Below, piece by piece: positions 221 through 5,338 of a stretch of 64,000 bases of DNA. How positions within the stretch are numbered: position 1 is the stretch's first letter; each line of letters begins with the position of its first letter. The position numbers and the translations under genes are program-made. Source of the stretch: Gemmatimonadaceae bacterium. GTDB taxonomy: Bacteria > Gemmatimonadota > Gemmatimonadetes > Gemmatimonadales > Gemmatimonadaceae. Location: positions 1 to 64,000 of the forward strand of contig JADZAN010000010.1 of NCBI GenBank assembly GCA_020852815.1. Reading direction: 5' to 3'. The notes below the pieces were generated by a model that saw nothing but the letters and a program-made list of their open reading frames with translations, was not told the DNA's origin and made no database searches.

Positions 221-2731
221 ATGCCGCCAGAGAATCGAGACGGGAGATTGACGCCAACCGCCGCAGCGGCGGTGCGCGCGGCGATCCGTCTCGCTTCTGG
301 CCGCGAGGTCTGTTTCGTCTGCAAGGTCGATGACGACCAGAACATCGTTGCGGCCCGTGTCGTCGCGCGGGGGGACGTCAAGTCGGTGCTCGCGCTCCCG
401 GGCTTCGCGCAACGCGGCGAACTCCTCCTGCACAACCATCCGTCGGGGAATCTCGAGCCGTCGGGCCCCGACCTCGAGATCGCGGCGCGCATGCACGACG
501 CCGGCGTCGGTTTCGCCATCACCGACAACGACGCCAGCGAGGTCTACGTCGTCGTCGAGGTCCCGCGCGAGCGCAAGCAGCACCCGGTCGATCCGCGCGC
601 GGTCGACCAGGTGCTCGGCGTCGCCGGCCCCATCGCGCGGCTGCACCAGCGATTCGAGGACCGGACGGCGCAGCGCGGCTACGCGCGCACCATCGCCCGG
701 CTCTACAACGGTGGCGGCATCGGGGTGCTCGAGGCGGGGACGGGGGTCGGCAAGTCGTTAGGCTACCTGGTCCCCGCGCTGCGCTGGGCGGCGTTGAATG
801 GTGAGCGCACGGTGGTCTCCACCAACACGATCAACCTGCAGGAGCAACTGGTCGGGAAGGACCTCCCCTTCCTGGCCCGCGCCCTCGACGACCAGCCGGT
901 GCGCTTCGCCCTCCTCAAGGGGTGGCACAACTACGTCTGCCTGTTGCGGCTGGAGCAGGCGCGCGCCGCCGGCGCGACGCTGTTCGACACCGGCTCGGTC
1001 TCCGACGTGGAATCGCTGGCCAAGTGGGCCGAGCGAACGGGCGACGGTTCGCTGAGCGACCTCGTGGCGCCGCCGCGCCCCGAGGTGTGGGACGAGGTGG
1101 CCGCGGAGCCCGACCTCTGCCTGCGGCTGCAATGCCCGCACTTCGACCGCTGCTTCCTGTTTGCCGCGCGGCGACAGGCGGCGCAGGCCGACGTCATCGT
1201 CGTCAACCATCACTTGCTCCTGGCGGATCTGGCGGTGCGCCGCGCGTCGCAGAAGTGGGACGATAGTGCCGTCCTCCCCCCGTACTCGCGCCTCGTGATC
1301 GACGAAGGGCACCACATCGAGGATGCCGCCGCGTCGCACCTGGGGGCCACCGCCACGCGACGCGCCCTGCAGCGCCTCTTTGGTCGCCTGGAGCGCCGGG
1401 GCAAGGGGCTCCTCCCGACGCTGTCGGCGCGGCTCGGCGCCCGCAGCGACCTGCTCTCGGTTGCCTCGCTCGACCTCGTGCACGCGCGGCTCTTCCCCTC
1501 GGCCGTGGCGGCGCGGGAGAAGGGCGGCGTGGTCTTCGACCTGCTCGACGGGCTGATGTTCGAGGCCAGCACGCCGGTGTTGCGGCTGACGGATGCCTTC
1601 GCCGACCACCCGATCTGGAAGGCGGGGCTGGCCGCGGCACTCGAGGACCTGCTGCGCGAGCTGGCCCTGCTGGGCGACAACCTGCGACTGGTGCGCGAGC
1701 GACTGGAGACCGACGAGAAGGCGCTGGAGGCGCACGCCGCGCTCCTCGGCGAACTGCGCGGCGTGGCGCGGCGGCTGGACAACGCGGGGAATGCGCTGCG
1801 CGAGGGGCTCGCACCCTCGGGGAAGGCCAAGACCGTCCGCTGGCTGGAAGTCCGCGGCAAGGAGCGCAACCTCGCCGTCACCTCCGTCCCGCTCGACCTC
1901 GCTCCCATCCTGCGCGAGGATCTCTTCAAGCGGCTGGAGACGGCGATCGTCACCAGCGCCACGCTCACCGCTGACGGGAAGTTCGACTTCGTGCGCGCGC
2001 GACTTGGCCTCACCGAGAGCGACGTGGAGCCGGAGACGCAGGCCTTTCCATCGCCCTTCGACTATCCGTCGCAGGCGATGCTCGCCATCCCGACCGACAT
2101 TCCGGCGCCTAACGTGGATCCGCGCGCGCACTTCGACGCCGTCGTCGACGCCATCGCGGCGGTGGCGTATGCCGCCGGCGGCGGCGTCTTTGCCCTGTTC
2201 ACCTCGCACCGCGACGTGCGCGAGGCGGCGCAGGTGCTGCGCGAGCGAGGCGTGGACCAGCGATTCCCGCTCATGGTGCACGGCGAGGACCAGCGAGCCG
2301 CACTCCTTCGCCGCTTCACCGACGCCGGCCACGCCATCCTCCTCGGCACCGCATCGTTCTGGGAAGGCGTGGACGTTCCCGGCGACCCGCTGCGCGCCCT
2401 GGTGCTGAGCAAGCTCCCCTTCAAGGTCCCGAGCGAGCCGCTGACCGCCGCGCACTGCGAAGCCATCGAGGCGCGCGGCGGCGACGCCTTCCGCGAGTAC
2501 ATGATCCCCCACGCCGCGCTGCGGCTCAAGCAGGGCTTCGGCCGGCTGATCCGCTCCGCCACCGATCAGGGGGTCGTGCTCCTCATGGACTCCCGCGCCG
2601 AATCCAAGCCTTTTGGCCGCGACATGGTCGAAGGCCTCCCGCCTGCCCGCCGCCTCATCGCCCCATGGGACGAGGTGGCCCGCGAGATCACCCGATTCTA
2701 CGCTCGCCCCGGCAAGCCAAAGACAGGATGA
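221..2731 (+). CDS. DinG/XPD-type ATP-dependent DNA helicase with an N-terminal JAB (RadC-like) domain
   Basis: An 836-residue superfamily 2 helicase predicted to unwind DNA 5'-3'. Residues about 10-125 form a RadC-like JAB domain with the metalloprotease signature H71-x-H73-P-S...S81-x-x-D84. The helicase follows: Walker A GTGVGKS at 173-179, DEGH box at 361-364, and four cysteines (YVC, then C-x4-C-x5-C) matching the DinG/XPD 4Fe-4S cluster. The C-terminal helicase half carries the ASFWEGVD and GRLIRS motifs. ATG 221 was chosen because the upstream in-frame extension is repeat DNA and low-complexity. The family role is repair or R-loop resolution; the JAB function is unknown. Fe-S, ATP and JAB residues are all present, so both halves may be active. 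Confidence 0.9.
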   Translation: MPPENRDGRLTPTAAAAVRAAIRLASGREVCFVCKVDDDQNIVAARVVARGDVKSVLALPGFAQRGELLLHNHPSGNLEPSGPDLEIAARMHDAGVGFAITDNDASEVYVVVEVPRERKQHPVDPRAVDQVLGVAGPIARLHQRFEDRTAQRGYARTIARLYNGGGIGVLEAGTGVGKSLGYLVPALRWAALNGERTVVSTNTINLQEQLVGKDLPFLARALDDQPVRFALLKGWHNYVCLLRLEQARAAGATLFDTGSVSDVESLAKWAERTGDGSLSDLVAPPRPEVWDEVAAEPDLCLRLQCPHFDRCFLFAARRQAAQADVIVVNHHLLLADLAVRRASQKWDDSAVLPPYSRLVIDEGHHIEDAAASHLGATATRRALQRLFGRLERRGKGLLPTLSARLGARSDLLSVASLDLVHARLFPSAVAAREKGGVVFDLLDGLMFEASTPVLRLTDAFADHPIWKAGLAAALEDLLRELALLGDNLRLVRERLETDEKALEAHAALLGELRGVARRLDNAGNALREGLAPSGKAKTVRWLEVRGKERNLAVTSVPLDLAPILREDLFKRLETAIVTSATLTADGKFDFVRARLGLTESDVEPETQAFPSPFDYPSQAMLAIPTDIPAPNVDPRAHFDAVVDAIAAVAYAAGGGVFALFTSHRDVREAAQVLRERGVDQRFPLMVHGEDQRAALLRRFTDAGHAILLGTASFWEGVDVPGDPLRALVLSKLPFKVPSEPLTAAHCEAIEARGGDAFREYMIPHAALRLKQGFGRLIRSATDQGVVLLMDSRAESKPFGRDMVEGLPPARRLIAPWDEVAREITRFYARPGKPKTG

Positions 2732-2921: not shown

Positions 2922-2957
2922 CTCTCGTCTTCTCGTCTTCTCGTCTTCTCGTCTTCT
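2922..2957 (+). repeat. CTCGTCTTCT pyrimidine array abutting a start codon
   Basis: Four tandem copies of the octamer TCGTCTTC run directly into the ATG at 2958, leaving no purine-rich Shine-Dalgarno sequence. Similar arrays precede the start codons at 28339 (minus), 50260, 51515 and 52793. Confidence 0.75.
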
Positions 2958-3566
2958 ATGAACACCCCCAGCAAAATCGTCTGCATCGGCCGTAACTACG
3001 TCGACCACGCCAAGGAACTCGGCAACGATGTCCCCGTCGAGCCGCTCTTCTTCCTCAAGCCGCCGTCGGCAATCATCGGTGATGGCGACGCCATCATCCT
3101 CCCGCCGCAATCCGACCGCGTCGAGTTCGAGGGGGAGATCGCGATCGTCATCGGCCAAACGCTCACCAAGGCGACCGAGGCCCAGGCGATCGCCGGTATC
3201 GCCGGCGTCGTGGCGCTCAACGATGTGACGGCGCGTGACCTTCAGTTCAAGGACTCGCAGTGGACCCGCGCCAAGGGGTTCGACACCTTCTGCGCCGTCG
3301 GGACTCCGAAATCCGGGAGCTTCGACTTCGCCTCGCTCGAGGTGGTGACGCGCGTGAATGGGGTCGAGCGCCAGCGGGCCAAGGGGTCGGACATGGTCTT
3401 CTCCGTCCCGTTCCTTCTGTCGTACGTCTCGCACGTGATGACGCTGGTGCCGGGCGACCTCGTCGCCACGGGGACGCCGGCCGGGGTGGGGAAGCTGGCC
3501 GCGGGAGACGTGGTGGAGGTGGAGATCGTGGGTGTCAGTACGGTCAAGAACCCCGTTCGGGGGTAG
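2958..3566 (+). CDS. Fumarylacetoacetate hydrolase family protein
   Basis: A 202-residue protein matching the compact single-domain FAH fold. Seen motifs: IGRNYxDHAKELGN at the N-terminus, LKPPSAIIG, the metal-binding EFEGEIAIVIG, the NDVTARDLQ stretch, and a C-terminal GDLVATGTPAGVG. Family members hydrolyse or hydrate acylpyruvates or 2-oxo acids (acylpyruvase, oxaloacetate decarboxylase, 2-hydroxyhepta-dienedioate isomerase); the substrate cannot be read here. The start at 2958 is the first ATG giving the family N-terminus, and it follows a pyrimidine array instead of a visible ribosome binding site. It is separate from the helicase by a 226-bp repeat-filled gap, so probably not co-transcribed. 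Confidence 0.92.
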   Translation: MNTPSKIVCIGRNYVDHAKELGNDVPVEPLFFLKPPSAIIGDGDAIILPPQSDRVEFEGEIAIVIGQTLTKATEAQAIAGIAGVVALNDVTARDLQFKDSQWTRAKGFDTFCAVGTPKSGSFDFASLEVVTRVNGVERQRAKGSDMVFSVPFLLSYVSHVMTLVPGDLVATGTPAGVGKLAAGDVVEVEIVGVSTVKNPVRG

Positions 3567-4693: not shown

Positions 4694-5338
4694 TTACGCC
4701 CCAGGTTCCATGGGCGCGGGTTCGTCATGCCACGTCCTGAAGATGGCCGTGACGACGCCCAGCACGGAGAAATCGTCGCTCGGCCCGAGGAAGAGTTCGC
4801 GCGCGTCGCCGTTGGTGGCCGAGAGGGAGAGGACTGCGCCCTGTCGCTGCACCACGCGCACCAGGACGTGCGGGCCGATGCGGGCGGCGACGAGGTCGCC
4901 ATCGCGGGCGCGCGTGGACGGGGCCACGAGGATCCAGTCGCCGTCGTGCACGCCGCGCGCCATCATCGCGTCGCCGCTCTGTCGCAGGAGGAAGGCGTCG
5001 GACGACGGGACAAAGCTGCGATCCATCGCCACCCACCGCTCCCTGTTGTCGTCCGTTAGGTAAGGCTCAACCGGGTTGACGCGCGCGTAGAGTGGGACGG
5101 GTTGCACTTGTCCCATGGACGACCAGCCGACGATGCGCACGCCGCGCGAGCGCGCCCCTTCGCGTTCGATGAATCCCTTCCCGGCGAGCGACTGCAGCAC
5201 CTCGGCCACCGTCTTGGTGGACTTGATGCGGAATCGCTTGCCGATCTCACGGACGCTGGGCTGGAAGGTGTTCTCCGCCAGGAAGTCCAGGAGGTAGTGA
5301 TACACGCGCCGTTCGAGCGGCGTGAGCGGGTCGTTCAT
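4694..5338 (-). CDS. LexA-like repressor lacking the self-cleavage site and catalytic dyad
   Basis: A 214-residue protein with LexA architecture: an N-terminal winged helix-turn-helix (1-70) and an S24-like C-terminal domain (75-214). In the alignable motifs, the Ser of the usual G-x-S-M is Ala124 (SGDAMM), the general-base Lys is Arg161 (VLVRVV), and the scissile Ala-Gly is replaced by Pro89-Val90 (RVNPVEP). It should bind DNA but should not self-cleave through RecA. The family function is SOS repression; non-cleavable LexA proteins, such as that of Synechocystis, regulate other genes. Another, cleavable LexA may exist outside the window. The start ATG at 5338 gives the normal LexA N-terminus. 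It lies downstream of gltX on the same strand. Confidence 0.85.
   Translation of the reverse strand: MNDPLTPLERRVYHYLLDFLAENTFQPSVREIGKRFRIKSTKTVAEVLQSLAGKGFIEREGARSRGVRIVGWSSMGQVQPVPLYARVNPVEPYLTDDNRERWVAMDRSFVPSSDAFLLRQSGDAMMARGVHDGDWILVAPSTRARDGDLVAARIGPHVLVRVVQRQGAVLSLSATNGDARELFLGPSDDFSVLGVVTAIFRTWHDEPAPMEPGA

Follow-up and report, generated by a model that had tools for sequence, protein, structure and literature searches.

A RadC-like JAB domain fused to a DinG-type helicase in Gemmatimonadaceae: a conserved active site in a module that some relatives have let decay or lost

The DNA considered here is a stretch of 64,000 nucleotides from a Gemmatimonadaceae bacterium (contig JADZAN010000010.1; below, the window). 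At positions 221 to 2731 it carries a chromosomal gene, here called JAB-DinG, for an enzyme that joins two modules and belongs to the already described "RadC-like DinG" subgroup, in which a RadC-like JAB domain precedes a DinG-type iron-sulfur (Fe-S) helicase. The protein is a further member of that subgroup and the architecture is not new; what is added is an evolutionary test, by way of degenerate and JAB-less forms of the same gene. Selection maintains the JAB active site, although the domain itself is dispensable for the helicase. To our knowledge, no substrate has been proven for RadC-type JAB domains. Here the JAB is physically joined to a DNA motor, its active site is kept in several phyla, and dead or JAB-less variants of the gene occur naturally, which makes the question of what the JAB does a bounded one; the relatives with a decayed or deleted module constitute a natural test of its role. 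A preliminary description of the gene was right about the fusion, the JAMM motif and the Fe-S set; the architecture had already been published, and the JAB proved to be accessory in several lineages.

The JAB-DinG protein

The main features of the gene and its product are the following (window positions).

221..2731, + strand: JAB-DinG (RadC-like DinG) coding sequence, 836 aa, ATG start (orthologue alignments)
245..565, + strand: RadC-like JAB/MPN+ domain, residues 9-115 (Pfam, JAB profile, AlphaFold2, structure matches)
305..307, + strand: E29, JAMM glutamate, putative general acid-base by analogy with E22 of AfJAMM (alignment)
431..439, + strand: H71-N72-H73, putative zinc-ligand histidines, H71 at 431-433 and H73 at 437-439 (alignment)
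461..463, + strand: S81, JAMM serine, putative stabiliser of the tetrahedral intermediate (alignment)
470..472, + strand: D84, putative third zinc ligand (alignment)
737..757, + strand: Walker A GTGVGKS, helicase motif I (motif reading)
938..1153, + strand: Fe-S domain with cysteines C240, C300, C305 and C311 (motif reading)
1301..1312, + strand: DEGH box, helicase motif II (motif reading)
2171..2644, + strand: Helicase_C_2 domain, including the QGFGRLIR motif VI (Pfam)

The ATG at 221 is the best start, as most orthologues align from within the first ten residues. A longer frame from a TTG at 41 was rejected, its 60 extra residues falling outside the region alignable to relatives. In several relatives the gene begins with a GTG that overlaps the stop codon of its upstream neighbour.

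That a JAB and a DinG-type helicase share one frame is confirmed by Pfam, NCBIfam, the orthologues and AlphaFold2 models. The structure prediction that had been proposed as a check gave confident models both of the JAB domain alone (predicted local distance difference test score, pLDDT, 91.3; predicted template modelling score, pTM, 0.83) and of the whole protein (mean pLDDT 91.0, pTM 0.86, from 32 aligned sequences). The best structure matches of the whole model are to DinG with single-stranded DNA (6fwr and 6fws, which we take to be E. coli DinG), followed by S. aureus DinG. With 220 bases between the gene and the contig start, in a genome of 5.38 Mb, one might suspect that two genes had been joined in one frame by chance or in assembly. 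The same fusion is found, however, in dozens of assemblies, at the same locus where neighbours were checked, and in other phyla; conservation and synteny rule this explanation out and leave it next to no probability.

In the JAB domain, the JAMM/MPN+ motif E-Xn-H-S/T-H-X7-S-X2-D is present as E29 plus H71-N-H73-X7-S81-X2-D84, so that the complete HxH...S..D motif claimed at the outset is borne out with E29 in addition; an Asn between the two histidines occurs in distant relatives. The Pfam RadC model PF04002 scores 30.3 bits (E 4.3e-7), above its gathering cut-off of 22.1, a cut-off that misses some distant members (L130, 18.2 bits; loci are labelled L and genomes G). The NCBIfam RadC equivalog NF000642 gives 25 bits against a cut-off of 180, and the RadC model TIGR00608 gives 21.6 bits against 133.85. 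The label "RadC-like JAB" is therefore apt for the domain family and does not extend to RadC proper, the equivalog cut-off being missed and a genuine RadC being encoded elsewhere in the same genome. With RadC (NF000642, TIGR00608, 2qlc) the protein shares the JAB fold and the HNHPSG...PS..D signature, whereas it has no room for the N-terminal RadC domain; the PRE motif, which we take to be a RadC label, is missing from the window JAB when this is aligned with the genome's own RadC.

Structure comparisons place the domain in the same neighbourhood. A JAB-only profile matches the RadC structure 2qlc (E 1.3e-7), and the top five Foldseek matches of the JAB model are chains of 2qlc, followed by JAMM/MPN domains. 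In VIA-align the 13 best rows (Z 10.2-8.5, 99-116 residues, root-mean-square deviation 2.5-6.0) are BubCD, Rpn11, signalosome and archaeal JAMM chains; the 50 VIA-align rows listed do not include 2qlc. Some of the MPN domains matched by the model, those of the EMC and of spliceosomal Prp8, are inactive.

Relation to described systems

The subgroup was named and modelled by Cheng 2025 (PMC11981726), whose available text calls it unstudied and takes its reference protein from Desulfuromonas soudanensis. As described there, it combines an N-terminal RadC-like domain having a Glu, two His and an Asp with a YoaA-like Fe-S DinG helicase. The window protein has all of these: a fused JAB, the conserved Glu, two His and Asp, and a YoaA-like Fe-S core. 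As we read Cheng 2025, the catalytic Glu opens beta1, immediately ahead of the His strand. The residue at that position here is E67, a Glu in only 53 of 93 JAB-bearing loci, whereas an earlier strand carries E29, conserved as Glu in 91 of the 93, so that the two glutamates may be different residues. Degenerate and JAB-less orthologues, and a Ser-for-first-Cys variant within the subgroup, are not described in the text of Cheng 2025 that was consulted, where Fe-S variants with one Cys replaced are mentioned among DinGs generally (PMC11981726). RadC fusions to DinG/RAD3-like helicases had been noted in a 2017 paper, which, in the text available, proposes a role in nucleic-acid processing (PMC5512222), and the nuclease idea for RadC recurs in PMC3482391. 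No experimental substrate for a RadC JAB domain appeared among the papers listed for RadC with JAB, JAMM or MPN.

Three other groups may be compared. ExoDinG, with S. aureus DinG (8zef, 9ii8; the structure matches next after 6fwr and 6fws), is likewise a DinG helicase bearing an N-terminal enzymatic module, a DnaQ-type exonuclease in its case and a JAB in ours; TIGR01407 accordingly aligns only from profile position 244, the RadC-like domain standing in place of the exonuclease. E. coli DinG and YoaA share the helicase core and Fe-S cysteines and include the best structure matches (6fwr, 6fws), but have no JAB domain, and the window protein falls below the YoaA cut-off. The JAMM/MPN+ isopeptidases (AfJAMM, PfJAMM1, Rpn11, BubCD) have the fold and the E-H-H-S-D active site in common with the window JAB, with an identity of only 8-19% in structure alignments; we know of none of these four with an attached helicase.

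Conservation of the JAB active site

The 185 helicase-bearing loci collected comprised 169 distinct ones, 93 with a JAB and 76 without a JAB visible to the profile. Of the 93, 91 retain the full set E29, H71, H73, S81 and D84. The seed set had been chosen by its HNHP motif, a choice in which E29, S81 and D84 played no part; what makes the count informative is that only two degenerate copies emerged when the profile was used to look for them, and that the unselected E29, S81 and D84 are also kept. From 25 further genomes, mostly with weaker or split matches and with fragments and contig-end loci dropped, 19 more readable JAB-bearing N-termini were obtained, of which 18 are intact as judged by eye. 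The preliminary description would have given up its reading had the motif residues varied among orthologues; in fact 109 of the 112 JAB-bearing DinGs retain all five, loci that fail the motif filter (L080, L119 and L172 among them) being left out of the count. The intact copies come from the window's phylum in 98 cases and from elsewhere in 11.

In 15 multi-phylum sequences the invariant positions are G27, E29, G51, V56, H71, N72, H73, P74, G76, P80, S81, D84, A88 and I100. The ratio of nonsynonymous to synonymous substitution (dN/dS) is 0.13-0.15 for the JAB and 0.09-0.23 for the helicase, values indicating purifying selection, in four comparisons, which overlap in sequences and in one of which (L004-L005) the domains are delimited with an error of about 26 residues.

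Decay and loss of the JAB domain

The site has been lost in three JAB-bearing proteins from two lineages: one in Fusobacterium vincentii (L083), and two (L107 in G130 and L297 in G142) from two species of the single genus g80, with genomes of 2.0 Mb. In all three, E29 and H71 are replaced, D84 has become Glu and S81 is kept, while H73 is replaced in two, the residues of L297 having been read by eye. E29, H71 and D84 thus behave as one unit, changing together in every exception. In the Fusobacterium JAB-DinG (L083:3983-6448), H-N-H-P reads R-T-T-K. A JAB-only profile made from intact copies gives 20.5 bits on L083, 34.7 on L107 and 58.4 on L297, while 500 shuffles each of L083 and L107 reach no more than 3.7 bits and ten JAB-less proteins no more than 2.1. 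Viral contigs scanned with the Fusobacterium protein yielded no relative, and a plasmid search with its N-terminus returned only its own record; the Fusobacterium decay therefore rests on one record. In the trees its helicase forms a long branch of unsure placement outside the JAB groups, and that of L107 is also a long branch, of 1.2.

The domain is absent altogether from at least 11 genomes of family f1 (genera g18, g30 and g5), from G094 and G071 (both of family f5) and from one Spirochaetaceae locus (L188). In trees of the helicase part, in which the window protein is represented by its truncated copy L002, JAB-less DinGs are nested in JAB-bearing groups, with support of 82 and 92 at the f1 forks, 100 for L105 (from G094) with an intact relative and 99 for L188 with an intact relative. 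Parsimony suggests that the JAB is ancestral in these groups, in which case at least four losses have occurred, of which one or two fall in f1, two in f5 and one in Spirochaetota. The usual upstream gene stands directly before the JAB-less gene in the g18 locus L071 and in G071, and about 570 bases before the helicase match in G094; it was not found at the JAB-less g30 and g5 loci (L063, L066). At L105 a different, helical-looking stretch lies in frame ahead of the JAB-less helicase.

Relocation of the JAB elsewhere in the JAB-less f1 genomes was considered and is not supported, there being one PF04002 match in each as against two or three in the 24 fused genomes of the same search. One JAB-less f1 genome, G200, has two matches, both with full-length RadC scores. 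Three JABs compared with 14 JAB-less loci gave no tblastn match better than E 0.14. The JAB-less f1 genomes retain a normal RadC.

Possible function of the JAB domain

DinG-family helicases translocate 5' to 3' on single-stranded DNA. R-loops and forks are substrates of E. coli DinG, and it is from there that the substrate idea applied to this protein comes. In the scheme that we infer, as regards zinc binding, direction of translocation, action in cis and substrate alike, the Fe-S superfamily 2 helicase would load on single-stranded DNA and move 5' to 3', the direction being taken by family analogy. The JAMM module would occupy the N-terminal slot where other DinGs bear an exonuclease or an endonuclease, and the motor would deliver the substrate to the putative zinc site, where it would be cleaved in cis. 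Whichever the substrate, a motor-coupled zinc hydrolase seems probable. That the JAB cleaves a nucleic acid is a real possibility that falls short of probable. The fuller reading, that the JAB is a motor-coupled JAMM with an activity new for JAMM proteins, most likely the zinc-dependent cleavage of unwound nucleic acid, is put forward tentatively and is somewhat unlikely to hold as a whole.

Several observations weigh against the proposed scheme. We know of no JAMM protein that cleaves nucleic acid, nor of zinc, cleavage or substrate data for any RadC-like DinG member. The E-H-H-S-D set is exactly that of peptidases. There is no nuclease among the 50 rows listed by Foldseek or by VIA-align for the JAB model; apart from RadC and one uncharacterised protein, these rows belong to JAMM (iso)peptidases or to MPN domains related to them. 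The great majority of intact copies (98 of 109) come from a single phylum. The decay is not complete either, the change of D84 to Glu being mild and H73 being kept in one copy. Finally, the JAB domain is accessory and not core, the basic task of the helicase being possible without it.

It is possible, if somewhat doubtful, that the JAB is instead a peptidase or isopeptidase: the motor would track along DNA while the zinc site would cleave a blocking protein, for example in a DNA-protein crosslink, or remove a ubiquitin-like tag from a repair protein. The fold and active-site set, which match those of JAMM (iso)peptidases, agree with this, as do the VIA-align Z scores of 8-10 to Rpn11, a COP9 signalosome subunit, PfJAMM1 and BubCD, and the predicted or tested peptidase roles of the JAMM glutamate and serine. 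On the other hand, according to PMC5512222, RadC-clade JABs probably lack the groove that would take a ubiquitin tail. Prok-JAB matches are lacking in the window's genome and ThiF-family matches number only two, so that there is no obvious ubiquitin-like conjugation system, a weak point since the search did not extend to E2 and ubiquitin-like families and other substrates are possible. A mainly structural or regulatory JAB (for DNA binding, autoinhibition or partner docking), with catalysis incidental, would be consistent with the folds that are decayed yet retained in Fusobacterium vincentii and the two g80 species and with the absence of the domain from some orthologues. This is unlikely in view of the five catalytic residues kept in 109 of 112 copies, 11 of them outside the window's phylum, since E29, both histidines and D84 would be unlikely to persist if the role were structural alone. 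Between the two catalytic readings, nuclease and peptidase, the nuclease is placed slightly ahead because of the DinG N-terminal slot, the improbable ubiquitin-tail groove, the lack of Prok-JAB and the mere two ThiF-family matches. An exonuclease or an endonuclease occupies the DinG N-terminus in the ExoDinG and EndoDinG subgroups, as the available text of PMC11981726 describes, and the slot equivalence of RadC-type JABs with nucleases is argued in that of PMC5512222.

If the nucleic-acid-cleaving reading is true, the lineages in which the domain is dead ("pRadC-DinG") or missing would be natural separation-of-function mutants, comparable to pExoDinG as opposed to ExoDinG. The substrate of the JAB should be something that the DinG motor exposes, and the phenotype of a loss of catalysis should separate from that of a loss of the helicase.

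The helicase and its Fe-S site

The helicase motifs and the four Fe-S cysteines of a DinG/XPD Fe-S helicase are all found in the window protein. Helicase_C_2 scores 138.4 bits (E 3.2e-40), and DEAD and DEAD_2 lie slightly below their Pfam cut-offs. In NCBIfam the helicase is nearest to the YoaA/DinG models, each below its own cut-off (YoaA 540 against 680 bits). The statement that all cluster cysteines are present holds for the window protein (C240, C300, C305, C311) and not for every member of the family. In the 91 intact JAB-DinGs the Fe-S positions read CCCC in 63 and SCCC in 28, the latter being one named Gemmatimonadota, L161, and all 27 intact members of families f4-f6 in the set (L084, L086 and L093 among them), in which the first Cys is replaced by Ser (NYVSIRR) and the other three are kept. 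SCCC is also seen in some JAB-less DinGs from other phyla.

Distribution and inheritance

The protein was matched in 54 of 60 relatives searched, a number that includes two (G019, G031) in which the JAB part is missing and some interrupted by a frame break or by the end of a contig. Its profile was matched in 260 of 295 genomes sampled from the phylum, partial, JAB-less or RadC-only matches included; many of the 35 genomes without a match are of family f7 and some of family f9, and genus g7 gave none in three genomes. The named relatives are Gemmatimonadota, and the protein of the Gemmatimonadaceae genome L187 is 66% identical to that of the window. A GTDB genome scan, a sample and not a survey, kept the best 80 of at least 593 stretches and yielded 78 usable proteins, of which 15 have an intact HNHP-type JAB: four from Gemmatimonadota, five of Geobacter/Desulfuromonadales/Desulfobacteraceae type, three from Spirochaetota, one each from Dadabacteria and Sumerlaeota, and one other. 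Geobacter argillaceus has an intact JAB-DinG (L116).

A mobile or phage origin was rejected: with the whole protein in tblastn, query coverage of at least 80% was reached in none of the 325 plasmid and none of the 42 phage records with a match. Among the matches listed (40 plasmid, 15 phage), only one begins ahead of residue 120; it lies on a Fusobacterium replicon of 2.1 Mb that is filed as a plasmid and is chromosome-sized. The locus is a vertically inherited chromosomal one, since neighbours are shared within the phylum and the listed plasmid and phage matches, with that one exception, cover the helicase only. When viral contigs were scanned with the JAB alignment, 80 of 124 confirmed loci were kept, in which the frames around the motif are of 100-399 residues in 72 and of more than 1500 in eight; the helicase part had no match in these 80 loci (tblastn, E 0.001). 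The longest viral JAB frame resembles the polyvalent proteins described in the available text of PMC5512222.

Genomic neighbourhood

Two genes downstream of JAB-DinG were followed in 26 loci of the phylum.

2946..3566, + strand: FAA hydrolase (Pfam), beside JAB-DinG in 21 of the 26 loci
4694..5338, - strand: LexA-type repressor (Pfam), in 9 of the 26 loci, from near relatives

One upstream protein recurs in 22 of the 26, one of these being the query's own; in all these counts, some stretches stop short of the FAA, LexA or upstream genes. This upstream neighbour (for example L082:1178-2431) has 417 aa, looks secreted by eye and has no Pfam match at E 0.1. A second upstream protein and a GltX-like protein, identified by eye, the former as TPR, also recur near JAB-DinG. 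None of these neighbours was seen at eight JAB-DinG loci of other phyla, and the gene neighbourhood yields no lead on the function of JAB-DinG.

Between JAB-DinG and the FAA hydrolase, at 2754-2913 of the window, lies a tandem array with a 29-base unit containing a short palindrome, CCCCAGC...GCTGGGG. The array pattern has 10 matches in the window with at most two mismatches, as against 0.16 expected. Of the ten exact genome-wide matches to a related pattern, five fall in this array and three are clustered on another contig, C24.

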